A DNA stretch of 64,000 nt from a bacterium (lineage in GTDB: Bacteria > Electryoneota > Electryoneia > Electryoneales > Electryoneaceae), in the NCBI GenBank assembly GCA_020444265.1, contig JAHLLH010000003.1:372001-436000 (forward strand), written 5' to 3'. Under the pieces are notes generated by a model, which saw only the letters and a list, made by a program, of their open reading frames with translations, had not been told where the DNA came from and ran no database searches. The stretch's first letter is position 1. The number at the start of each line of letters is the position of its first letter. The position numbers and the translations under genes were made by a program. Shown in pieces: positions 3,682 to 58,272 of this stretch.

Positions 3682-3836
3682 GCAACCTGACCGCCCTAAT
3701 GAAATCTCCCGACCTCTACCCAATCCGCAAAGTCCTCAACCTGAACTCATCCAGCCGTGTCCTCACCTTCGCCACCGAAGGCATCACGGATCCCAAGATG
3801 TACGCGAAGATTTTGGGGCGGGGTAGTACTACATAA
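3665..3836 (+). pseudogene. Stranded 3' fragment of a second diaminopropionate ammonia-lyase gene
   Basis: Read in frame from 3666, this stretch encodes the last 56 residues of a protein matching the end of the PLP enzyme at 1214-2368. By hand alignment 40 of 56 residues are identical (KSPDLYPIRKVLNLN against KSPDLFPIRKALNLN; FATEGITDP identical), and the stop codon TAA lies at 3834-3836. No start or upstream domain exists: the preceding sequence belongs to the glycosyltransferase in another frame. It is a remnant of a diverged tandem copy or a gene-end duplicate left by an insertion event. Confidence 0.85.
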
Positions 3837-9528: not shown

Positions 9529-10020
9529 TCAGTCGGAGAATCGATCATCCGCCGTGCCGCTGTGCCCGGAATGCTCCGCCCTGTCCAGCCACCCGGCACG
9601 AGCATCCGGAAAGCAATCGAACTGCGGGGCATAGGGTTTGATGTCGAGCAAAGGGGTGCCATCAAGGATGTCGATGTCGGCGACATGCAGAGTACTGCCC
9701 TCGACCTTCAGCAGACGGACCGGGGAGATGCCAATGGGGTTGGGACGATTTGGCCCACGGATCGCGAAGATGCCGCGCTCGTTGTCGTCGAGGAAGGGCC
9801 GCGCCTTCAGCTTGACCTCTCCCGCACGATCAAACCAGTACACCAGCCAGATTCGCTCGAACAACTCCAGATCAGCCAGTCCCTCAGCGTATTCATCACG
9901 TACTACTACTTGTCCCTCTACCCCCTCTGCACGAGCCGGCTGGATCGGTGTTCCGGCCCGTTCTATAAACGGACTATGGATGATCCCGATGGGGGAAAAG
10001 GTGACAGAATGAACACTCAT
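9529..10020 (-). CDS. trmO: TrmO-like tRNA methyltransferase (N6 of t6A37)
   Basis: A 163-residue protein with the TsaA/TrmO beta-barrel signature: FSPIGIIHSPF near the N-terminus, GLADLELFERIWLVYWFD, then RGPNRPNPIGISPVRLL and DIDILDGTPLLDIKPY, the two conserved SAM/tRNA-binding motifs. In E. coli TrmO methylates t6A37 of some tRNAs that read ACY threonine codons. The ATG at 10020 is preferred over the upstream in-frame one at 10047 because GGAGG sits 7 bases before it. The length is close to the catalytic core of short TrmO proteins; there is no C-terminal extension. Confidence 0.85.
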   Translation of the reverse strand: MSVHSVTFSPIGIIHSPFIERAGTPIQPARAEGVEGQVVVRDEYAEGLADLELFERIWLVYWFDRAGEVKLKARPFLDDNERGIFAIRGPNRPNPIGISPVRLLKVEGSTLHVADIDILDGTPLLDIKPYAPQFDCFPDARAGWLDRAEHSGHSGTADDRFSD

Positions 10021-10209
10021 GGTCAGCCTCCGAGGATGTCCATGCAAAGCACGAAAAGAGATTGCTACGGGAGTCTTATGTGGAATGTTTCATCTCTTGC
10101 CTCCCCGGGCGCTTGACCTTGGCAAACGGCATTCATACCATCAATCCACCTAGAGGAAGATTGAAAATTGAAAATAGCTGGAATTGGGCCCATTGAATAG
10201 ACTCTCAAA

Positions 10210-12183
10210 TTATGTAGTTTTGGAAGATAATTCGCCATCTATTGCATCATATACCTTAGAACCAATATTGCTATCCCTTGTGTACTTATCTTTCATAATA
10301 AATTCATCTAATGATGTCTTGCGATTTATTATCGATTTTTTATTAATACTATAGTCACATATTCCATGTAATATTTCGTTATTTACCATTATGTAATTAT
10401 ATTTCAAAAAAGCTATTTTTTTTAATGCTATATGACAGCATGTATAGGTATAATGACGCTTATTATATCTTGTTAACCTTTCTAGGCGCTTTAGAAGCCA
10501 CTCAGATTTGATGTAATCTACCGTACCGACCATATATACATATGCAAGGTGAAGGAGAGCATCTGGCAGATCGAAATTTCTTGCTAAGTACTCTAAGATA
10601 GATTTTCCTCTTCTGTAATCTCTAAGTAAAAAGAGGATTACAGCATATGTATGCAAGTGATTTTCATAAGGATAGTATATAGGTCTTTTATGAGATTTTT
10701 CGAGTTCATTAAGACGTATCTGTGCTTTTGTTATATGTTTTATCGCATTCTTAATGTATCTATCGTAGTTAAAGCTTCCGTATTCGTAGTTACTTTTGTC
10801 AATGATCATACAGTAGCTATATGCAATACGGTTGTGAAGTAGGCTATTTTCAGGATGTATTTTAAGTCCTGCTTTACAGTATTTAATAATTTTGTTGTTA
10901 TCTATCTCAATATTTTCATTATTGTCACATACTAACATTAGCTCAGTAGCTGCATAATATATGTAATATACATCTTCTTTTGTTCTGGTAGGCTTTGTAT
11001 TAGATACAAATCTGTTGTGTTTATTCGTGACTAATTTCTTCTTCCATAAAAGCGCAATACTTTTGGCCTCGTTTATCTTCTCGATCTCAATAAGTGATTT
11101 TATAACACAGGAGTATATAATTCCGTCATCTAGTTCTTTGGATAACAGTTTGTCGTAATAGCGCGATACTATCGATTCATATCGTTTGTCGATGAGTAGT
11201 AACCTAGCTCTGATCTTGGTACGTTCTAGCCGAAAGGTATGTGGGTAGAATATGCTATTATAGATTAGTGGTATCTGTGCAATTAATGTTTTTCCGAAAC
11301 GAAGGCTATAATCGGCTAGAGCCAGTGATTTATTATTATATTTTAATTTATAAGAAGATTCGTAATTAGAAATAGATGTAATGTGTTTCTTAAGGTGATT
11401 AGAGTCTCTTTTTATAGTTAAACTTCTTGAATTTAACAAATTCAATGATATAAATAATATTGTTAAGAATAATACAATGATTAACTGTAAAGGAGAGGCA
11501 AGATCAAAAAATAACAAGAGGATAAAAAGAAAAGACATTAAAGCGAAAGAGGATAAAAAAAATGGCTTAAGTAAGATGCTAATATCAGTAAATATTAAAT
11601 TGTACAAATAGTAATAGCGATAGAAGATTAGTAAATACAAATAGATAGAAAGTAATACCAATAGATATCTAGGGTTGTCGAGTATGTAATACTTAACAAG
11701 ACTTATTGAGTTATTTGGAGAAAAATAATGTGTTAAAGATATGGATGAAATGATAATTATTAAAATAGGAGTAATGTAATATAATGAGCTTTTTCTATTT
11801 ATATATAAAAAAGGTTTTCCTGCATGATAAAAGAATTCGTTAAAAATTACGCGATCTGGTCTACTTAGTCGAAGTAAGGCACGATATGAGGTACTGTCAA
11901 GCGAGGCAAGGACTTTACTGTGAAAATTTAATAATGTCTTAGTATTTGCCTGGAAGCCATATTCATTATTGCGTCTTTCGATGAGAGTCAAATGCTTCAT
12001 AATATTAATTGTTAAGTAAATCAATAAGGTTAAAGATAGGAAAAAAATATAGAAAATGGAATATAAATAATCATAGGAATGCATCAAATACAAAAAAAAC
12101 AAAAATAAAACGCAAAAATAAGAAATGATGGAATAAAAAGTCAAATTTTTTCTTAAAATAACTTTTAAGCGTAGGAATAGCAT
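10210..12183 (-). CDS. Hypothetical membrane protein with a helical-repeat C-terminal domain
   Basis: A 657-residue protein of unrecognised family. The first half has about six hydrophobic segments (for example SIISYFCVLFLFFLYL, ILIIIISSISLTHYF, LIIVLFLTILFISLNLL). The second half is soluble and helical, with TPR-like pairs (KYCKAGLKIHPENSLLHNRIAYSY; GKSILEYLARNFDLPDALLHLAYVY). The open frame reaches 12234, but the ATG at 12183 is chosen because AGGAG lies 5 bases upstream and this removes a 43-base overlap with the preceding gene, whose TAG forms part of the ribosome site. The domain plan (membrane anchor plus cytoplasmic repeats) suggests a sensor or scaffold. Strongly AT-rich codon use points to transfer. 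Confidence 0.6.
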   Translation of the reverse strand: MLFLRLKVILRKNLTFYSIISYFCVLFLFFLYLMHSYDYLYSIFYIFFLSLTLLIYLTINIMKHLTLIERRNNEYGFQANTKTLLNFHSKVLASLDSTSYRALLRLSRPDRVIFNEFFYHAGKPFLYINRKSSLYYITPILIIIISSISLTHYFSPNNSISLVKYYILDNPRYLLVLLSIYLYLLIFYRYYYLYNLIFTDISILLKPFFLSSFALMSFLFILLLFFDLASPLQLIIVLFLTILFISLNLLNSRSLTIKRDSNHLKKHITSISNYESSYKLKYNNKSLALADYSLRFGKTLIAQIPLIYNSIFYPHTFRLERTKIRARLLLIDKRYESIVSRYYDKLLSKELDDGIIYSCVIKSLIEIEKINEAKSIALLWKKKLVTNKHNRFVSNTKPTRTKEDVYYIYYAATELMLVCDNNENIEIDNNKIIKYCKAGLKIHPENSLLHNRIAYSYCMIIDKSNYEYGSFNYDRYIKNAIKHITKAQIRLNELEKSHKRPIYYPYENHLHTYAVILFLLRDYRRGKSILEYLARNFDLPDALLHLAYVYMVGTVDYIKSEWLLKRLERLTRYNKRHYTYTCCHIALKKIAFLKYNYIMVNNEILHGICDYSINKKSIINRKTSLDEFIMKDKYTRDSNIGSKVYDAIDGELSSKTT

Positions 12184-12191
12184 ATATGCTC

Positions 12192-12821
12192 CTAAGAGCT
12201 TAGGTATACTTGTATGAAAGACGCGGTAAAACAAGAAAAGATGAAGAGAAAGCTGTTTATGATGAAGTATAAAAAGAAAAAAATGGCTTTATCGGCTTTA
12301 GTGGATATAATAGTTCCTGTATTAGTATTTCTGCCATTTTGCAGGCGACAGTAGATGCTTGCCAATGAACCGTTCTTTAGATAGTAGGTAAGGTGAGAAG
12401 TAGCAATGGAGGTTAGGAAAACTACTAAAGAAATGCAAAATGCATAAAAACTTGCCTTATCTATGGTGAAGTTCGGATTTTCGGAAGGAGAAGAAAGAAA
12501 TGATTTTATGACAGAAAAACTAATGAGAATGAAAATGTTTAAAGACAAAAAGATTGAGTAATGTCCCCCAATAAAGTATGGCAATTCAAGAGATATATGG
12601 AATGATCTGGACTTATGTGGAGGTATATTATTCAAACGATGGTTAAAAAATAGCCTATCACTCCTATTGATGATTAGATCATTAGAGAATTTATTTAGAA
12701 GCGCGTAAAAAAACGTTATAATTAAACCTAGAGAAAAATATACTGCGAAATATAGTAAAAAGTTCCACGTGATATCTATGGCAAAAGTGTGCTCGAAGTA
12801 TAGAATAAGTTTTCGAAACAT
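12192..12821 (-). CDS. Hypothetical small membrane protein
   Basis: A 209-residue protein with about four to five hydrophobic segments (NFLLYFAVYFSLGLIITFFYALL, SIFLSLNIFILISFSVI, FYAFCISLVVFLTSI, IFFFLYFIINSFLFIFSCF). No catalytic motif is recognised. AAGGA lies about 9 bases before the ATG at 12821. Its stop overlaps the ribosome site of the following 657-residue membrane protein, so the two are coupled and probably form one complex. Both are confined to the AT-rich island. A membrane-effector role in a defence or signalling cassette is possible but unsupported by any motif. Confidence 0.55.
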   Translation of the reverse strand: MFRKLILYFEHTFAIDITWNFLLYFAVYFSLGLIITFFYALLNKFSNDLIINRSDRLFFNHRLNNIPPHKSRSFHISLELPYFIGGHYSIFLSLNIFILISFSVIKSFLSSPSENPNFTIDKASFYAFCISLVVFLTSIATSHLTYYLKNGSLASIYCRLQNGRNTNTGTIISTKADKAIFFFLYFIINSFLFIFSCFTASFIQVYLSS

Positions 12822-12921
12822 AGCACGGTGTCCTTAATTTGAAATGAAAATACTTTTTATCCTTGTCTTGGTCAACTGTTGAAGAAAAAGAAATTGGTGG
12901 AGTACTATTGTGGAGAGACTG

Positions 12922-15395: not shown

Positions 15396-15764
15396 CTAGT
15401 TCGAAACCGACTCGATGACACGAATCAGTTCACGCAGGGCGAAGGGCTTGCGCAGAAGAGCATCCGGGGTAACATCCATATCCGTATCATTCGCATCCAG
15501 ATAGGAATAGCCCGTAATCAGGATCACCTTCCGATCCGGGGAGTCTTTCTTGATCTCACGCAGGAGACGAATCCCATCGAAACGCGGCATGTAGATGTCG
15601 GAGACAATCAGTTCTGGTTTGTGGCGATGATACAGCTCGAGCGCCACATCGCCATCATCGGCGACATACGTTTCGAAGCCAAAGCTTTCAAGCGCAGTAC
15701 GGAGGACATCCCGCATATCCGGATCGTCATCCACTACCAAAACGTTTTTCGGTCTATTGGCCAT
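15396..15764 (-). CDS. Single-domain response regulator (CheY-like receiver)
   Basis: A 122-residue stand-alone receiver domain. Acidic cluster VVDDDPD (D12-D14), phospho-acceptor D56 in LIVSDIYMP, switch threonine T84 in LITGYSY, and K106 in LLRKPF are all present. There is no output domain, so it must act by protein-protein contact or in a phosphorelay. The partner kinase is not nearby; it is transcribed away from the asparagine synthetase gene. Confidence 0.9.
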   Translation of the reverse strand: MANRPKNVLVVDDDPDMRDVLRTALESFGFETYVADDGDVALELYHRHKPELIVSDIYMPRFDGIRLLREIKKDSPDRKVILITGYSYLDANDTDMDVTPDALLRKPFALRELIRVIESVSN

Positions 15765-45230: not shown

Positions 45231-45614
45231 ATGGCTGAGCAAAATGACCAGTTGGCGATGAGTGTCGAGGAGGCTACCCTCGATGCCGCAGTCTGCTGTC
45301 CGGGGATCGAAGATCAGTTTGACCCACGCTTTTTCAAGGCGCTGGGTGATCCGAACCGTATCGCCATTCTGGTTCAGCTCGCACGCTGTATGCGTCCCTG
45401 CACCGTCACAGAACTGGCAGACTGCTGCCCGGTTGATTTCAGTGTTGTATCGCGTCATCTCGTGATCCTGCGAGATGCAGGAATTGTCGAGGCAGAAAAG
45501 CAGGGGAAGCAGGTCTACTACTCGGCCCGTCTGATAGATATCGCCGGACGCATGAGTCAGATTGCAGACTCCTTGACCCAAGCGGCATTTGTCCGTTCAA
45601 AAGTATGTTGTTGA
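45231..45614 (+). CDS. arsR: ArsR-family arsenic-responsive repressor
   Basis: A 127-residue winged-helix repressor: FKALGDPNRIAILVQLA is the family start, ELADCCPVDFSVVSRHLVILRDAG the recognition helix, GKQVYYSA the wing. It has many cysteines: C22-C23, C53, C57, C65-C66 and a terminal C126-C127. This differs from the C-V-C pair of E. coli ArsR, but C53/C57 and C65/C66 lie in the equivalent part and could form the As(III) site. GAGGG precedes the ATG. It heads arsR-arsM-arsC and overlaps no gene once the arsM start is corrected. Confidence 0.88.
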   Translation: MAEQNDQLAMSVEEATLDAAVCCPGIEDQFDPRFFKALGDPNRIAILVQLARCMRPCTVTELADCCPVDFSVVSRHLVILRDAGIVEAEKQGKQVYYSARLIDIAGRMSQIADSLTQAAFVRSKVCC

Positions 45615-45645
45615 CCCACAGCGAAGGCTGTTTCAGGAGGTTTTG

Positions 45646-46506
45646 ATGGAATCGAATGATGTGGTACGTGGATTTGTCCGTGACGCCTACAAATTGGCGG
45701 TCGAAGGGAATACGGGTTGCTGCGGTGGAGATAGCAAGGGGACCGTGGTCCACTGGGCGGGGTACGATGAGGATATCCTTTCGACCCTGCCGGACGAAGT
45801 GGTCAACAATGCCTTTGGTTGTGGCAATCCGCTCGCCTTCAGCGAGGTCAAACCGGGTGAGGTGGTGCTTGACCTCGGAAGTGGCGCAGGCATCGACCTG
45901 CTTCTGGCATCGAGGATTGTTGGTCCGGAAGGCAAGGTCATTGGGGTGGACATGACCGATGAGATGATCGAGAAAGCGCGTCAGAACATCGCCGCCGATG
46001 GCGCGATCAACATCGACGTGCGCAAGGGGATCATCGAGGAGCTGCCCGTTGAGGATGGATCGGTCGACTGGGTCATCTCCAACTGTGTGATCAACCTGTC
46101 CCCGGAGAAGGATCGCGTTTTTGCCGAAATCGCACGAGTGCTGAAGCCGGGTGGACGGATGCAAGTGTCCGACCTGGTGGCTGTCGATCTGCCCGGTTAT
46201 GTCAAAGAGAACCAGTTCCTGCGCAACACCTGCATCGCCGGGGCGATCAGCGAGGAAGAGTACGTCGCCGGGTTGCAGGAGGTGGGGATGACGGATGCTT
46301 CGGTTCTCGAGAGAATCCGCTACGATGCATCTCAGGTCAAGGGTCTGCTCGATTCCGAACGTTACAATGTGGACACCGGTTCCTCCTGTGGCTGTGGTTG
46401 TGGTGTGGGGGCGGAGGGACTCGCCGGTGAAGCACTTGAGAGGGCAATCCGTGACCTGACCGGCAAGGTCTGGAGCGCGAAAATCCACGCACGTAAACCG
46501 GAGTAG
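45646..46506 (+). CDS. arsM: Arsenite S-adenosylmethionine methyltransferase
   Basis: A 286-residue methyltransferase. SAM motif VVLDLGSGAGIDLLLA (about 73-88) and GVDMTDEMIEKAR are clear. The three cysteines conserved in ArsM are present in context: FGCGNPL (C59), SNCVINLS (C147) and RNTCIAGA (C196). Extra Cys pairs occur at C25-C26 and in a C-terminal CGCGCG-like tail. It methylates As(III) to volatile or less retained forms. The ATG at 45646 is fixed by AGGAGG 5 bases upstream; the frame to 45589 would overlap arsR. Confidence 0.93.
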   Translation: MESNDVVRGFVRDAYKLAVEGNTGCCGGDSKGTVVHWAGYDEDILSTLPDEVVNNAFGCGNPLAFSEVKPGEVVLDLGSGAGIDLLLASRIVGPEGKVIGVDMTDEMIEKARQNIAADGAINIDVRKGIIEELPVEDGSVDWVISNCVINLSPEKDRVFAEIARVLKPGGRMQVSDLVAVDLPGYVKENQFLRNTCIAGAISEEEYVAGLQEVGMTDASVLERIRYDASQVKGLLDSERYNVDTGSSCGCGCGVGAEGLAGEALERAIRDLTGKVWSAKIHARKPE

Positions 46507-46510
46507 GGGA

Positions 46511-46936
46511 ATGGCAAACCCGAAGAAGGTGCTGATACTCTGTACGGGAAACTCCTGCCGCAGCATCATGGCCGAAGCCCTGATCAATCATGATCTCGCC
46601 GACTTTTGGCAAGCTTTTTCGGCGGGTGTGGAACCCTCGAAGCTCAACCCGCGGGCCGTGCAGGTAATGGCGGAGCTGGGGATCTCACTGGACGGCTACG
46701 AGTCGAAAGGTGTGGAGGAATTTCTGCAACGAGACGATCTCGACCTGGTGGTGACCGTCTGCGACCATGCACGCGAAACCTGCCCCGTTTTCCCGCACCC
46801 GGTTGAGCAGGTCCATGTCGGCTTCGAAGACCCTGCACCGTTTACCGACGAACCCGACTCCATCGCCCTCCCGAAGTTCCGCGAGGTGCGTGACAAAATC
46901 AAGGTTGAACTGATCGAGTTTCTGCAGAGCAGGTAG
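46511..46936 (+). CDS. arsC: Arsenate reductase, thioredoxin-coupled (LMW-phosphatase type)
   Basis: A 141-residue protein. The P-loop CTGNSCRS (C11, C16) binds arsenate, and the redox pair C84 and C91 in VCDHARETCP completes the relay known from Staphylococcus/Bacillus ArsC. PHPVEQVHVGFEDPAPF closes the active site. It reduces As(V) to As(III) for export or methylation by its operon partners. It starts 4 bases after arsM. Confidence 0.92.
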   Translation: MANPKKVLILCTGNSCRSIMAEALINHDLADFWQAFSAGVEPSKLNPRAVQVMAELGISLDGYESKGVEEFLQRDDLDLVVTVCDHARETCPVFPHPVEQVHVGFEDPAPFTDEPDSIALPKFREVRDKIKVELIEFLQSR

Positions 46937-46948
46937 TGCTTTGACTGG

Positions 46949-46974
46949 CCCGACACTTCAATGTCGGGTTTCTT
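46949..46974 (+). terminator. Intrinsic terminator after arsC
   Basis: Stem CCCGACA / TGTCGGG with a 6-base loop is followed by TTTCTT. It separates arsRMC from acr3, so acr3 may have its own promoter or depend on read-through. Confidence 0.7.
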
Positions 46975-47004
46975 CGGAGGTTCCAAACCGAAGGGATTTC
47001 CGAT

Positions 47005-47048
47005 GTAGACCGGGGCTTGCCTGCCTGTGGATGGTTTCCAACCCCGGC
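47005..47048. repeat. GTAG-headed palindromic repeat, copy 1
   Basis: GTAG at 47005-47008, one variable base, then a 39-base block at 47010-47048 starting CCGGGGCTTG and ending CAACCCCGGC. The ends pair (CCGGGG with CCCCGG, plus TTG with CAA) to form a hairpin. The block is identical to the one at 48275-48313. A GTAG head before an imperfect hairpin is the layout of REP sequences mobilised by REP-associated tyrosine transposases. Confidence 0.8.
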
Positions 47049-47051
47049 AAA

Positions 47052-47173
47052 GATGGGCCACGCCCATCGACCTTACCGCGCGAAAGCGCGAACGTCAGTG
47101 GCTTGGGTGCCCCGCCACCCAAGCGTGCAGATCAGCAGAGACTGTCAGGTCCTTAGCGCAGCGGTGACCTGAC
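47052..47173. repeat. Cluster of four further palindromes upstream of acr3
   Basis: Directly after repeat copy 1: GATGGGC-cac-GCCCATC (47052-47068); CGCGC-gaaa-GCGCG (47077-47090); GCTTGGGTG / CACCCAAGC with a 6-base loop (47101-47124); GTCAGGTC / GACCTGAC with a 14-base loop (47144-47151 and 47166-47173). The region is non-coding. Together they make nearly the whole 170-base leader of acr3 foldable. Confidence 0.7.
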
Positions 47174-47213
47174 GGTGTACGTTTCAAACAGCAACCAACA
47201 ACCCGAGCCCATC

Positions 47214-48272
47214 ATGATCAATTCCCACATCCCGGGACGTAAAAAACGCCTCTCCACCCTGGACCGATACCTCACCCTCTGGATCTTCCTCGCGATGGCG
47301 GCGGGGGTGATGCTGGGAGCGTGGGCGGAAGCCGTGCCACGTGCCATCACCGCGATGTCCATCGGCACCACATCCATCCCGATTGCCGTCGGCCTCATCC
47401 TGATGATGTTCCCGCCCCTCGCGAAAGTACGCTACGAGGAGCTGCCGCGAGTCTTCCGCAATGGCAAAGTGCTGGGGCTGTCGCTGCTGTTGAACTGGGT
47501 GATCGGGCCTCTCTTGATGTTCCTCCTCGCCGTCCTTTTGCTACCGGACAAACCGCACTACATGACCGGCCTGATCCTGATCGGGCTGGCGCGTTGTATC
47601 GCGATGGTGATTGTCTGGAACGACCTCGCCGAGGGGTCCGCCGAATACGCAGCCGGACTGGTTGCCTTCAACAGCATCTTCCAGATCCTCTTCTACCCGG
47701 TCTACGCATGGCTTTTCATCACCGTCCTGCCGCCGCTGTTTGGCCTGGAGGGCTTCGAGGTACACATCACCGTCGCCCAAATCGCCGAAAGTGTGGCGAT
47801 CTACCTTGGCATCCCCTTCGCCGCCGGGTTCCTCACACGCCTGACCCTGCGACGTCTCAAAGGCGACGACTGGTACACGAAAAAATTCGTCCCGGCGATC
47901 AGCCCCATCACCCTGAGCGCGCTGCTCTTTACGATTGTCGTCATGTTCAGCCTGAAGGGCGGCACCATCCTCGAGCTGCCGCTTGACGTACTTCGTGTCG
48001 CCGCTCCGCTGCTGATCTACTTCATCGCCATGTTCCTCATCACCTTCTGGATGGCGAAACGGATGGGCACCGACTACTCCAAATCCGCATCCCTCAGCTT
48101 CACTGCCGCCTCGAACAACTTCGAGCTGGCCATCGCTGTCGCGGTTGCCGTCTTCGGCATCCACTCCGGTGAAGCCTTTGCTGCGGTGATCGGACCATTG
48201 GTCGAGGTACCGGCGCTGGTGGGATTGGTGGGAGTATCCCTCTGGATTCGGCGACGCTTTTATCAAGCGTAG
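47214..48272 (+). CDS. acr3: Arsenite efflux pump, Acr3 type
   Basis: A 352-residue membrane protein with ten predicted helices. [20 protein letters not shown] carries the conserved functional cysteine of TM4 (C128 from the ATG at 47214), and [20 protein letters not shown] is the TM9 signature of the BASS/Acr3 class. It exports As(III) driven by the proton gradient. The frame extends to a GTG at 47175, inside the palindrome cluster, so the ATG at 47214 is preferred although its ribosome site is weak. Its stop codon TAG is part of the GTAG head of repeat copy 2. Confidence 0.92.
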
Positions 48273-48313
48273 GCCGGGGCTTGCCTGCCTGTGGATGGTT
48301 TCCAACCCCGGCG
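48270..48313. repeat. GTAG-headed palindromic repeat, copy 2
   Basis: GTAG (48270-48273) overlaps the acr3 stop; after one variable base the 39-base hairpin block at 48275-48313 is identical to copy 1. Same orientation, 1265 bases apart, with acr3 between them. Confidence 0.8.
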
Positions 48314-48316
48314 ATG

Positions 48317-48372
48317 TCCGGCAACTGCCGGACGTTCCTCCTAAAAGGTGTCCGGGGTCCGATGGGACCCCA
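48317..48372. repeat. Two additional palindromes downstream of acr3
   Basis: GTCCGGCA-ac-TGCCGGAC (48317-48334) and GGGGTCC-gatg-GGACCCC (48355-48372) follow repeat copy 2. The rest of the gap to the next gene (48373-48574) is increasingly AT-rich and I see nothing else in it. Confidence 0.65.
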
Positions 48373-50764: not shown

Positions 50765-51620
50765 GACGGTTGCTGACATTAACAGTTTTTCTAGTCGCTT
50801 TTATCACGACTGGTGTAACTCAGGTAAGATATACAATTGAATGGCTAAAAGATTATTATGATTTCGATAACTGGCCTGGATTAACATCTGATATAAAACA
50901 ACCTCTGAATTTACTGGAGGGAGTTGAAGCATATCTAGGATTGATTAAAAACTCAAGTGTTCGTCTATATGGAGGATCGGCCATTTGTGAAGCAGGAGAA
51001 ATCACTTGGACGGCATATGATAATAGTAATATGGCGAAAGAAGTTATGTTGAGGAGCTATGAATATTCAACATTAGATGATTATGAGTTATCAACAATCC
51101 TTGATTCTCTGCAATACAATATAATAGGTGATGTAATGTCTTTTAACAGGCTGGGAAGTTATAATCAAAGCCCTTATTATACGATATCTGTTTCGAGGAA
51201 CAATTATATGTTTGGTGTTACAACAAGTGATTCGTTCCTCTGTGTTCAGGTTGCTCAGGCAATGGTCAACCGAATTGATGCTGCTCCTTCAATCGTATCA
51301 TTGGATGATTCCCCATCGCTTCCGTACATATCGGAAGTCAGAATACCTGATGATTTCTGGCAGCGTGAAGAGAGTAGACGTGCCTGGATAGAATTTGTTA
51401 TCCCCGCTGGACCGGATGAATTGGTAGAGACTTCGTTCAGGGCTTGGATTGGAGAATGGAGTGTCGTAAACCCGGGATTCAGAACAGTTGATGGGTATCG
51501 AATACCTATATTGTGTGAAGAAATACCAATGGCTGATCACATTAATTTGCGGGCCCGCTTGATGAACAATAGAGGTGAACGGACAGATACAACAATTGTG
51601 TTGGAAGAAGAATAGGATAG
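48990..51620. other. AT-rich island 3
   Basis: Composition becomes AT-rich inside the transglutaminase-like gene, stays so through the first of the paired secreted genes, and recovers across the second. The boundaries fall within coding sequence rather than between genes, unlike islands 1 and 2. Confidence 0.6.
50761..51615 (+). CDS. Secreted protein of an unrecognised tandem family, copy A
   Basis: A 284-residue protein with a signal peptide (residues 1-20, LTLTVFLVAFITTGVT). The mature start QVRYTIEW is followed by DFDNWPGLTSDIKQPLNLL and GGSAICEAGEITW; VQVAQAMVNRIDAAPS is a predicted helix; MNNRGERTDT lies near the end. Each of these matches copy B. No enzymatic motif, lipobox or sorting domain is present. 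Coupled by ATGA to the transglutaminase-like gene. AT-rich. The last 85 residues (WIEFVIPAGPDELVETSF onward) look like a separate beta-sandwich that may bind a partner. Confidence 0.65.
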   Translation: MRRLLTLTVFLVAFITTGVTQVRYTIEWLKDYYDFDNWPGLTSDIKQPLNLLEGVEAYLGLIKNSSVRLYGGSAICEAGEITWTAYDNSNMAKEVMLRSYEYSTLDDYELSTILDSLQYNIIGDVMSFNRLGSYNQSPYYTISVSRNNYMFGVTTSDSFLCVQVAQAMVNRIDAAPSIVSLDDSPSLPYISEVRIPDDFWQREESRRAWIEFVIPAGPDELVETSFRAWIGEWSVVNPGFRTVDGYRIPILCEEIPMADHINLRARLMNNRGERTDTTIVLEEE

Positions 51621-55700: not shown

Positions 55701-56867
55701 AAATCCAATCCTATTTTAGCATTTGATCCCCCAACAGGAAATGGAACAAATATCATCGCGATGAATGGCACAGGAGTTCAACAAGAGACTGAAATGGATG
55801 CTGAGCTGGCTGTTTACGGTGAATCGCTGCCCTTCATGAAAGGCGGACACAACGATATTTGGGATGAGGCAGATTCCTATCTTATCTATCGCAGCAGTTT
55901 GCCCGGGGAACCGGTTCTTGACGTGAAAGAAAACTACTTCGATTCGAAACTTGATAAAGGTCCAGATGAATGGTTTGTTGGGGATATCAATTTCCTGCCG
56001 TATGACACATCGCCAAACAATCCGCCATCGACAGCAACGGCGACTTCAGAAGACGAACTCCTATTGATATCCGCTCTTCAGATGGAGCGGGACAGCCTTT
56101 TTTCAGCATGTTATCCGGAATATTTACAGATTGTAGAGGATTATGCTGATAGTGCTTCGGCAGCCATCGCAATAACTCGAATGATTGCTGTTGCTCACTC
56201 TCTTGGTGATGGTTTAGATGAAGTTATAGCCGATCTCGGTGATATTGAGGATACGACTCCCAGCGACCTGCTTGCTTGGAAAGCCCAGGACTTGCGCTTG
56301 CGAGTTCAAGCCTACGATGAGCTATTCGTCCCGGCTTTAACGCACTATGCGGATATTATAGAGAACCCCATCTCTTCAGTCGATTCTATATTTGCCGTGA
56401 TTGATTCTCACCGTGTGGCGATGGATAGCGAACTAATACTGGGTAAGCGCGGAGTGCAGAATTGGGGGAACGTGGGTAAGGAGATCAGTTCAAACCGAGC
56501 GATCTATATCGACAGTACAGCAACCTATCTTTCTCGTGCCAGAGGTGAATGGGAAGAAAGGAAACCTCGTGAGCGTTTAGCACTGCCAGATCGATTTGAA
56601 CTAGGTACTTTGTATCCTAATCCATTTAATCCTCAGATTACCATACAGTATGCACTACCTGAGCAGACGAACCTACGTATTGAGATTTACAATGTGTTGG
56701 GCCAAAGAGTTCGTGAATTGGTCAACTCGCCGATGAAGGCAGGATTTCATCGTTTGCAGTGGGATGGCCGAAATGATCATCGAACGCAAGTGGCAAGTGG
56801 GATTTACTTTGTGAAGATGTCAGCGCAGAAGTATGTCAAAACTAAAAAGATTGTGATGCTCAAATAA
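52707..56867 (+). CDS. Very large secreted protein with beta-helix and type IX sorting domain
   Basis: A 1386-residue exported protein. Signal peptide VCAIITLLFSAGLAQA; an unassigned N-terminal region with several cysteines (INCCYQCTSND); beta-sandwich segments in the middle; residues about 790-1030 form a right-handed beta-helix (YILVGDVEVESGQVLEIDP, then NNCVIKNAEFGVIGIKA and repeated short strands). A helical linker follows (SALQMERDSLFSACYPEY, probably repeat-like), and the last 85 residues are a Por sorting domain with GTLYPNPFNPQITIQY and VASGIYFVKM. The ATG at 52707 has GAGG 5 bases upstream and gives a good signal peptide; 52677 does not. Probably a cell-surface adhesin or polysaccharide-binding protein. 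Confidence 0.8.
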   Translation: MYNRIVCAIITLLFSAGLAQATEYYMDVSYPGHTDEAVILIPHPIFPPDSIVIHHPSLLSAYNHLYTKPHERIEQIFPEELPGAEKKSIGEKVNHFVTAYNDSLEVFMMYQDEVFEHVNVSLDEIYRPDQHAYMYDLNVEYTLGDCEFGDQYHIVVGVKVPAVNQVLQTYDLKVMVADEAGYESFNGKMNPPPTRINCCYQCTSNDSMAYVNEMNYYDGDVVRVDASGGNCNSIRIAVANHLGCGNVVGFAEVARVDQDGTIVPRDPVVNNQNYTQVQVFNLAENGVFAFHLGGAHYGRTSVFVICSNCEAGDYGWGLQWDRQQYLVKQDEELEPVWDEHIPFDNDVPSFLMGHYNNSSLEFDISCEGVSSWTTVFDTAYATQEFPERIATDGSGPSVITIQMPTKDPWLTSVCEGGFHVIPVAVSSSTGQATIRVTCPEATQLPGPFDITIDATDPIGPHGIMLGQIFPVNNAFSITMELIEGDYVIFDQVALLSDEPPAPGDSRLVKPDWVHVSSPRMVGHEVSFTTMINAFASADVEDAIIDLSVEDEAGTLVYGPVSVTVDSDYPAFDVSKVYNVISPDQTWIPETPGTYAVNLLGHVTSIENCTETSKLTSSYFEVYSDGYCVFSSENLNDSRFNSPLYTDSQTFGRVVVSKDDFFLRTIETKWTRAGDATLSIHNWSNGVPGAMIGDPIQLDVDESDLYPGSKVISMPSDSDFADLSTFFVKVTTPSENGAILAVRPHGSTTWNHYYSHGQRINEEVYGEWWLVPSGVQGGTAVSGSVSGKWTVNDSPYILVGDVEVESGQVLEIDPAVTVLSMGNYQFQVNGALQANGTSENPVRLETAPGANEWYGLMFSASSSQNKLNNCVIKNAEFGVIGIKADFKSIQGLRISGCDTGLSFESMTVGISQSEIFNCVTGVYSYYSDLMLKDLYVHDCVMNGVLLDNLQSGTIMNTRIERNGQKPGAESAGLLLYRSSPLIDGCVIKYNGGNGIELMNKSNPILAFDPPTGNGTNIIAMNGTGVQQETEMDAELAVYGESLPFMKGGHNDIWDEADSYLIYRSSLPGEPVLDVKENYFDSKLDKGPDEWFVGDINFLPYDTSPNNPPSTATATSEDELLLISALQMERDSLFSACYPEYLQIVEDYADSASAAIAITRMIAVAHSLGDGLDEVIADLGDIEDTTPSDLLAWKAQDLRLRVQAYDELFVPALTHYADIIENPISSVDSIFAVIDSHRVAMDSELILGKRGVQNWGNVGKEISSNRAIYIDSTATYLSRARGEWEERKPRERLALPDRFELGTLYPNPFNPQITIQYALPEQTNLRIEIYNVLGQRVRELVNSPMKAGFHRLQWDGRNDHRTQVASGIYFVKMSAQKYVKTKKIVMLK

Positions 56868-56892
56868 GTTAGTGAGCTGACTATTATCGGGA

Positions 56893-56918
56893 ACAGCCCG
56901 GGCATTCACCCGGGCTGT
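56893..56918. terminator. Hairpin between convergent genes
   Basis: A perfect 10-base stem ACAGCCCGGG / CCCGGGCTGT with a 6-base loop lies 25 bases after the large cargo gene and 28 bases before the convergent ccsA stop. No good T-run follows on either strand, so termination may be weak. Confidence 0.5.
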
Positions 56919-56946
56919 GTATTATCCTTATGATCCCACCAATCGC

Positions 56947-58272
56947 CTACGTCACTTCAAACGAGTGCAGGCCGCCGAAGAAGTAGTTGCCGAAGAAGCT
57001 GACGAAGACGAAGACCATGCCGAGGACCAGCAGGACTGCGGCACGTTTGCCGCGCCATTCACGCTGGTAGCGGGCGTGAAGGAAGCCGGTGTAGAAGAGC
57101 CAGATGATCAGGGCGCCGACTTCTTTCGGGTCCCAACTCCACCAGGTGCCCCAGGCCTGTTCGGCCCAAATGGCTCCGGCGAACAGCGCGCCGACGGTAT
57201 ACAGCGGGTAGCCGATGGCGACGGCGGCGTAGCCGATTTCCTCGAAGACGGTCCGTTTCAGGCCGAGCGATTTGACCCAGGCGCCCTGGGCACGGCCCAT
57301 GAAGAACCAGAGGATCGGTGACAGCGCCCAACTGATGACCAGTACCGGTCCGAAAAACTCGAAGATTTTCAGGTAGGAACGGCCGGTCAGCATGACAGTA
57401 CCGTTCTTGATCAGGAAGCCGACAATGATCGCTGACAGCAGCAGTGCGGCAACCACCACCATGAACATCCGCGACCCGGCACCGGCCAGCTTGCTCTGCT
57501 TGACAATACGTCCGTGGTAGAGCGGCCAGGCGATTGCGGCAACAACAAGTCCAATCCCGAGGCCAATCGCGGTCCGTCCCCAGTAGAGGGGGCCATCGCT
57601 CGCCATCAAGGCGAACTGGGTGACCGCAGAGCCGGTGAGACGGCCCATCATGTTGGCCGGAACCTGGTTGATCGGGGTGGGGAGGATGCCGATGAGCTTC
57701 AGCAGAACCGCCACAACAATCGGCACTGCAATCCAGAAAATCGCGAACAGGTTCCACTCACGGCGAACACTTTCCCGCCCGACTTTCACCGATTCATCAT
57801 CCGTCAGCAGGTAGAGGGTACCGCCTGCGAAGCTGATTAAGAAGGCACCCGATCCGAGGGCTGCGAGGGTGACATGGATTGCCAGCCAGTTTGACTGCAG
57901 GGCCGGCATCAGTTGACGGTTTACCTCGTTAGGCAGCAGGCTCGCAACCACCAGCATCATCACCGGGATCGGTGAGACAAAGACACCAATTTTGTGGTTC
58001 TTGTAACGGATCACAAAGTAGATCAGGCCGGCGACTACCATCCAGCTCATCAAGCCCATGTACTCGTACATGTTGGCGAGCGGGATGTGGCCCTGGTGCG
58101 CCCATCGTGTGCCAAAGGCAATCGAGTGAGGGATCAGCCCGATCCCGGCGACGATGGTCGCATACAAACCCACCTTTTCCTTCTTCAACGCCACGTGGAC
58201 GATGTAAAGCAGGAATGAGGCGAGGTAGGCATAGAAGGTTATGCTGTAAAAAATGGCATCGGGACGGTTCAT
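56947..58272 (-). CDS. ccsA: Cytochrome c assembly protein CcsA (ResC type)
   Basis: A 441-residue membrane protein with about ten to twelve helices. The tryptophan-rich heme-handling motif WGTWWSWDPKEVGALIIWL and conserved histidines (WAHQGHIPLANMYEY; FYTGFLHARYQ) identify CcsA/ResC. With ResB it moves heme out of the cytoplasm and attaches it to apocytochromes c (system II). Its ATG overlaps the stop of the 190-residue upstream gene (58269-58272). Confidence 0.9.
   Translation of the reverse strand: MNRPDAIFYSITFYAYLASFLLYIVHVALKKEKVGLYATIVAGIGLIPHSIAFGTRWAHQGHIPLANMYEYMGLMSWMVVAGLIYFVIRYKNHKIGVFVSPIPVMMLVVASLLPNEVNRQLMPALQSNWLAIHVTLAALGSGAFLISFAGGTLYLLTDDESVKVGRESVRREWNLFAIFWIAVPIVVAVLLKLIGILPTPINQVPANMMGRLTGSAVTQFALMASDGPLYWGRTAIGLGIGLVVAAIAWPLYHGRIVKQSKLAGAGSRMFMVVVAALLLSAIIVGFLIKNGTVMLTGRSYLKIFEFFGPVLVISWALSPILWFFMGRAQGAWVKSLGLKRTVFEEIGYAAVAIGYPLYTVGALFAGAIWAEQAWGTWWSWDPKEVGALIIWLFYTGFLHARYQREWRGKRAAVLLVLGMVFVFVSFFGNYFFGGLHSFEVT

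Follow-up and report, generated by a model that had tools for sequence, protein, structure and literature searches.

The acr3 locus and its two repeat units

The window, which is the whole stretch of 64,000 nucleotides that was analyzed, carries an ars operon on the + strand in which arsR-arsM-arsC lies upstream of acr3. The arsR gene (45231-45614) codes for an ArsR/SmtB-type regulator, arsM (45589-46506) for an arsenite methyltransferase (PRK11873, 264.6 bits, cut-off 263), and arsC (46511-46936) for a protein of the thioredoxin-type arsenate reductase family with scores below the curated cut-offs. The acr3 gene (47214-48272) codes for an arsenite efflux permease (TIGR00832, 436.8 bits); its open reading frame can begin at a GTG at 47175 (47175-48272), the ATG at 47214 being the likelier start.

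A 44-base unit, GTAG[A/G]CCGGGGCTTGCCTGCCTGTGGATGGTTTCCAACCCCGGC, lies on each side of acr3, at 47005-47048 (copy 1) and at 48269-48312 (copy 2), and both copies are on the + strand. The initial annotation had described two direct 44-base repeats with one variable base, 1265 bases apart; both were located and differ only at base 5, and the distance measured from start to start is 1264 bases. The head motif of the unit was matched twice in the window and never in 100 shuffles. A repeat search of the window paired the two copies over 57 bases at 88%, and thus the similarity between them ends with the unit; their flanks are unlike each other on both sides. In both copies GTAG stands directly 5' of the palindrome, and both are the long form of a GTAG-tagged REP. 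In copy 1 the tag is at 47005-47008, the arms are CCGGGG (5', 47010-47015) and CCCCGG (3', 47042-47047), and a 19-base insert, CTTGCCTGCCTGTGGATGG, occupies 47016-47034. The hairpin of the 44-base unit has a stem of 6-7 bp around a loop of 26 bases and is therefore imperfect, as had been described.

Both copies run on into a second hairpin which is different in each, a feature that the initial annotation had missed, as it had the further palindrome families of the spacer and the arsR-arsM-arsC genes upstream. Copy 1 has retained hairpin 1, and its second hairpin, GATGGGC/GCCCATC with the tail GACC (47049-47072, + strand), is of a type that is also found behind a GTAG REP at position 55821 of contig C16. 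The remainder of copy 2 (48313-48371, + strand) is made up of a second hairpin, GTCCGGCA/TGCCGGAC, at 48316-48333 with the tail GTTCC, a linker, and a third hairpin, GGGGTCC/GGACCCC, at 48354-48371. Folded as single-stranded DNA, copy 2 with its second hairpin reached -17.8 kcal/mol (z -3.3 against shuffles) and copy 1 was weak against shuffles (z -1.1). An Rfam search of the units returned no family, and the terminator and promoter scans made no call at either unit.

It had also been claimed that acr3 lies between the repeats and takes its stop codon from the second one, and this holds: the TIGR00832 match identifies the gene, and its stop TAG (48270-48272) is made up of bases 2-4 of the GTAG of copy 2. 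In six relatives of the same family the C-terminus of Acr3 ranges from KRKFY to about 13 residues beyond, and thus copy 2 is placed where the protein naturally ends at a variable length. On contig C2, a putative acetyltransferase gene (locus L004, 1628-2185) whose protein ends in YQA likewise has its TAG stop within a GTAG REP, and the bases before that REP, TATCAAGC, are the same as those in acr3. Elsewhere in the window, 2219-2349 and 3687-3817 form a direct repeat of 131 bases that is 82% identical, the copies being 1468 bases apart.

The long unit is a variant of a larger GTAG hairpin family

The long unit is a side-arm variant of a GTAG hairpin family with about 70 members, many of which are paired head to head as REPINs. 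Genome-wide counts come from pattern searches and the other analyses from sampled stretches. The pattern GTAGRCCGG..CCGGC had 70 matches in the genome, a few of them overlapping or fortuitous, and the reversed pattern had 4; GTAGGCCGGATTCTTGAATCCGGC and its variants occur at dozens of sites. These units, about 70 in all, are dispersed over many contigs, and at the loci where genes were read they sit in gaps or at gene ends; the crude ORF mask, which also covered some true REPs, is an unreliable guide to intergenic placement. In the 552 kb sampled, GTAG was the commonest tetranucleotide ahead of two-hairpin compounds, with 11 cases, including both copies beside acr3, or 6.5-fold over expectation; in plain single-hairpin head counts, in which each hairpin is counted twice, its enrichment was only weak.

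The order in a complete element is hairpin 1, inner hairpin, linker, hairpin 2, and inverted hairpin 1. Head-to-head pairs account for 17 of 49 hand-listed elements, and the elements are clustered, with 9 gaps of less than 2 kb against 1.1 expected; as the elements were listed by hand and delimited by a distance rule, their counts are approximate. At acr3 there are no two close inverted REPs such as define a REPIN, for both units are singletons and both are on the + strand. Read from its GTAG, copy 2 matches a complete element from the hairpin-2 end through to the inner hairpin; its remainder corresponds to the inner part of complete REPINs and the distal inverted REP is missing. Judged by its sequence, then, copy 2 is a truncated REPIN.

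Compared with the short form, GTAGGCCGGGG-TTTCCAACCCCGGC, the long unit has 19 extra bases, CTTGCCTGCCTGTGGATGG, in its 5' arm. A similar insert is present within another stem type at C11:247104 and C1:129991. As read from the sequence, the insert at C11:247104 and those at some other sites are able to fold as a short hairpin, and this pairing is mostly lost in the copies beside acr3. We tentatively suggest, as a possibility that is rather doubtful, that REPs with different stems have received a mini-hairpin module of 19 bases (about CTTG-YCYGCC-TGK-GGMTGR) at one and the same position of their 5' arm, giving branched REPs, and that a related form of this module is present in the CATTGCGAG..GAAGCAA palindromes of the same genome.

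The 38-base core of the long form has four clean copies in the 4.33-Mb genome (19 contigs), namely, the two beside acr3, one at C1:335245, and one at C2:254287; a fifth, decayed copy is at C11:108238. The whole-genome count that had been proposed as a check thus found two further clean copies away from this locus. These two are halves of inverted pairs (1496/1631 in L004 and 1496/1769 in locus L001) and have unrelated genes and no acr3 alongside. The long form had no match in 80 other genomes searched, and the exact 34-base core is absent from the GTDB collection, from which the genome of the window and near genomes were perhaps left out; the suggestion that the unit may be a clade-specific REP is in keeping with this, the long variant being lineage-specific at this level. 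With random placement, two of the five long-form copies would lie within 1.3 kb of each other with a probability of 0.5%, and a local duplication or a hot spot is therefore possible.

Two further observations were made on these repeats. Three hairpins (GTCAGGTC.., TCGCGCC.., GTGTCAGATCTGAGGATCTGACAC) recur together as one composite unit on contig C16 at 12807-12889, 15599-15681, and 51435-51517, and L001 has a copy of this composite within a GTAG element (about 1580-1675). Several contigs (the ends of C1, C3, C10, and C11) break off no more than a few hundred bases from a REP, and REPs may have broken the assembly there.

RAYT-like genes and the arsC-acr3 spacer

Searches with Y1_Tnp and with a model of the REP-associated tyrosine transposase (RAYT) found five RAYT-like genes in the genome. 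Three of the five proteins are over the cut-off of NCBIfam NF047646 and two are below it; the HUH motif, the catalytic Tyr, and an NP(L/V)(R/K)xG-like motif, with the variants NPVLAG and NPVRAN, could be read in all five. Each of the five genes is accompanied by inverted copies of a palindrome family of its own. The GTAG family is linked in this way to the RAYT gene at C1:155-541 (127 bits, over the NCBIfam cut-off), which has a GTAG REPIN directly upstream at C1:571-727; REPs are on one side only of this gene, the contig ending on the other side. A cognate RAYT is thus present at the level of the family, and the long form itself was not found at the flanks of any RAYT gene in the genome. In 33 RAYT loci, most of them from relatives, GTAG was the commonest hairpin head, with 26 cases (10.7-fold). 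The initial annotation had recognized the GTAG format as that of REPs processed by RAYTs and had called for a search for such a transposase gene; the GTAG head, the RAYT-linked family, and a RAYT gene with a GTAG REPIN directly upstream all bear it out. Of the other RAYT-like genes, the one at C10:120901 (locus L072, around 9902-10546) is bracketed by near-perfect AT-rich palindromes, TTATTAGTGACAGTTACTAATT.., of which the C16 sample contained no copy. The family relative G001 has 20 RAYT matches and GTAG palindromes of its own (GTAGCCCGGAT..ATCCGGG).

The 277-base spacer between arsC and acr3 (46937-47213) holds palindromes of four families, each tied to a different RAYT-like gene elsewhere. 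Besides copy 1 these are, all on the + strand, a palindrome at 46945-46985 of the family (CTGGCCCGACACTTCARTGTCGGGTTTCTTCGGAGG) that brackets the RAYT-like gene at C2:142690, one at 47101-47137 of the family (GCTTGGGTGCCCCGCCACCCAAGCGTGCAGATCAGCA; 52 genome sites with up to 3 mismatches) that brackets C1:341041, and one at 47141-47176 of the family (GTCAGGTC..GACCTGAC) that brackets C11:414336. A CGCGC-GAAA-GCGCG hairpin at 47077-47090, also on the + strand, is a candidate member of a further family or of one of these. In 456 kb of contig C16 this spacer is the only place where four RAYT-linked families meet within 280 bases. Simulations with placement in gaps gave 0.19% for four families together and 9% for three or more, figures that are only indicative because the ORF mask is crude and the test was picked after the place had been seen. 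The 7 sites at which the GTAG and C1:341041 families lie close together are not a significant excess (3.6 expected with placement limited to gaps, P 0.065).

Origin of the repeats beside acr3

The initial annotation had raised the idea that the repeats may have moved acr3. If recombination between REPs had shifted acr3 to another place in the ars operon, or if the gene had moved as a REP-bounded cassette, one would have an explanation for the exact bracketing of acr3 by two near-identical repeats, for the proximity of the two long copies that chance gives at only 0.5%, and for the gene order, since acr3 directly precedes arsC in four relatives of the family (G002, G004, G005, and G006; in G005 arsM comes next) and follows arsC here. 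The change in operon order is real; any link of it to the repeats is conjectural, and the order varies in further relatives, arsC and acr3 being on different contigs in G001 and G017. Against relocation, the two units share one orientation, whereas the boundaries of RAYT genes and of REPINs are inverted pairs. Nor does a cassette transposon fit, for acr3 is single-copy in the genome, the other long copies have no acr3 next to them, and the outer flanks are unrelated. Bracketing is also not peculiar to acr3. At 55.8-58.5 kb of contig C16, REPINs occupy one gap after another among genes for subunits of a 2-oxoacid:ferredoxin oxidoreductase, an identification made from the translated sequences and not from a family search. 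The gene for the alpha subunit (56862-57998) stands between two REPINs of the same orientation 1.47 kb apart; bracketing is therefore something that the GTAG family does between genes. The gene itself is native by its distribution and its place in the tree: acr3 is present in 7/7 genomes of the family, compared at one genome per species, and in many genomes of the phylum, and in the Acr3 tree this protein adjoins three proteins of the family (98/73), in a clade made up mostly of the family. The best named matches of Acr3, up to 73%, are spread over many phyla. Of the two findings that had been named as speaking against the earlier proposal, acr3 in all relatives was obtained for the family, and confinement of the unit to this locus was not, further copies lying elsewhere. 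Taken together, relocation of acr3 by the repeats is quite improbable.

We also regard it as unlikely that selection maintains the units for a function in the ars operon at the RNA or DNA level, as a terminator, an mRNA-stability hairpin, or a protein-binding site, with mobility being incidental. In favor of such a function are the strong hairpins right at the acr3 stop, a typical place for REPs, which are mostly found downstream of coding regions (PMC3733652). The lack of a terminator call and of an Rfam family, the unrelated genes beside the two other long copies, and the relatives that have acr3 and no such units all argue against such a role. That the similarity is due to chance or to duplication in assembly is hardly credible: the genome is in 19 contigs, several of which end close to REPs, but the shuffles gave no match in 100, the flanks differ, and two further copies are at other loci.

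The most likely explanation, to which we give a probability of roughly 0.8, is that both units are GTAG-tagged REPs of a RAYT-associated family, each of which most likely entered its gap next to acr3 in an event of its own, and that acr3 is native and was not carried by them. Copy 2 would be a REPIN without its distal partner that landed at the 3' end of acr3, where its GTAG now closes the reading frame, and copy 1 would belong to one of the four families of RAYT-linked palindromes that have built up between arsC and acr3. Mobilization would presumably have been by a RAYT that recognizes the single-stranded GTAG hairpin, as established RAYT biochemistry suggests. Two observations weigh against this reading: the long form is at the flanks of no RAYT gene in the genome, and two of its five copies lie closer together than random placement would lead one to expect.

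Relation to known REP systems

Earlier work has described GTAG REPs and their dimers, their association with RAYTs, and the TAG stops that they give to ORFs (Di Nocera et al. 2013, PMC3733652), and the RAYT motifs have been defined (PMC2817692). The family described here, compared at the level of format with the 24 published families of the GTAG super-family, shares with them an unpaired GTAG at one end of a dispersed GC-rich stem-loop, many head-to-head dimers, adjacency to RAYT genes, and TAG stops for flanking ORFs (PMC3733652). It differs in that the 5' arm of some units bears a side arm of 19 bases and that most units have a second hairpin. Stems in the published families mostly measure 6-9 bp (13 at most) and loops mostly 2-4 bases, some families having long complex loops (PMC3733652). 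Cleavage of E. coli REPs needs GTAG and irregularities in the stem (PMC8266576). As in REPINs (PMC3116915), inverted pairs are the commonest multi-unit form in this genome, but the two units at acr3 are singletons of the same orientation. In REPtrons and TIRtrons the RAYT gene has REPs or double palindromes at its flanks (PMC2817692, PMC3733652), and each of the five RAYT-like genes here similarly lies beside inverted palindromes of its own family. Double palindromes that combine a GTAG unit with another stem-loop are already described from Pseudomonas (PMC2817692, PMC3733652); what sets the present genome apart is the meeting of four such families within a single spacer of 277 bases.

The locus is a clear case of a repeat-bracketed resistance gene that resembles a mobile cassette but whose movement as such is not supported. 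The genome presents a RAYT/REP landscape outside the usual proteobacterial models, with five enzymes that each apparently have their own palindrome family. For studying how RAYTs discriminate between REPs, the spacer with its four families and the REPs with a side arm offer themselves as natural substrates, and the mini-hairpin module, if it is true, would be a route by which REP families could swap parts and perhaps change their RAYT partner.
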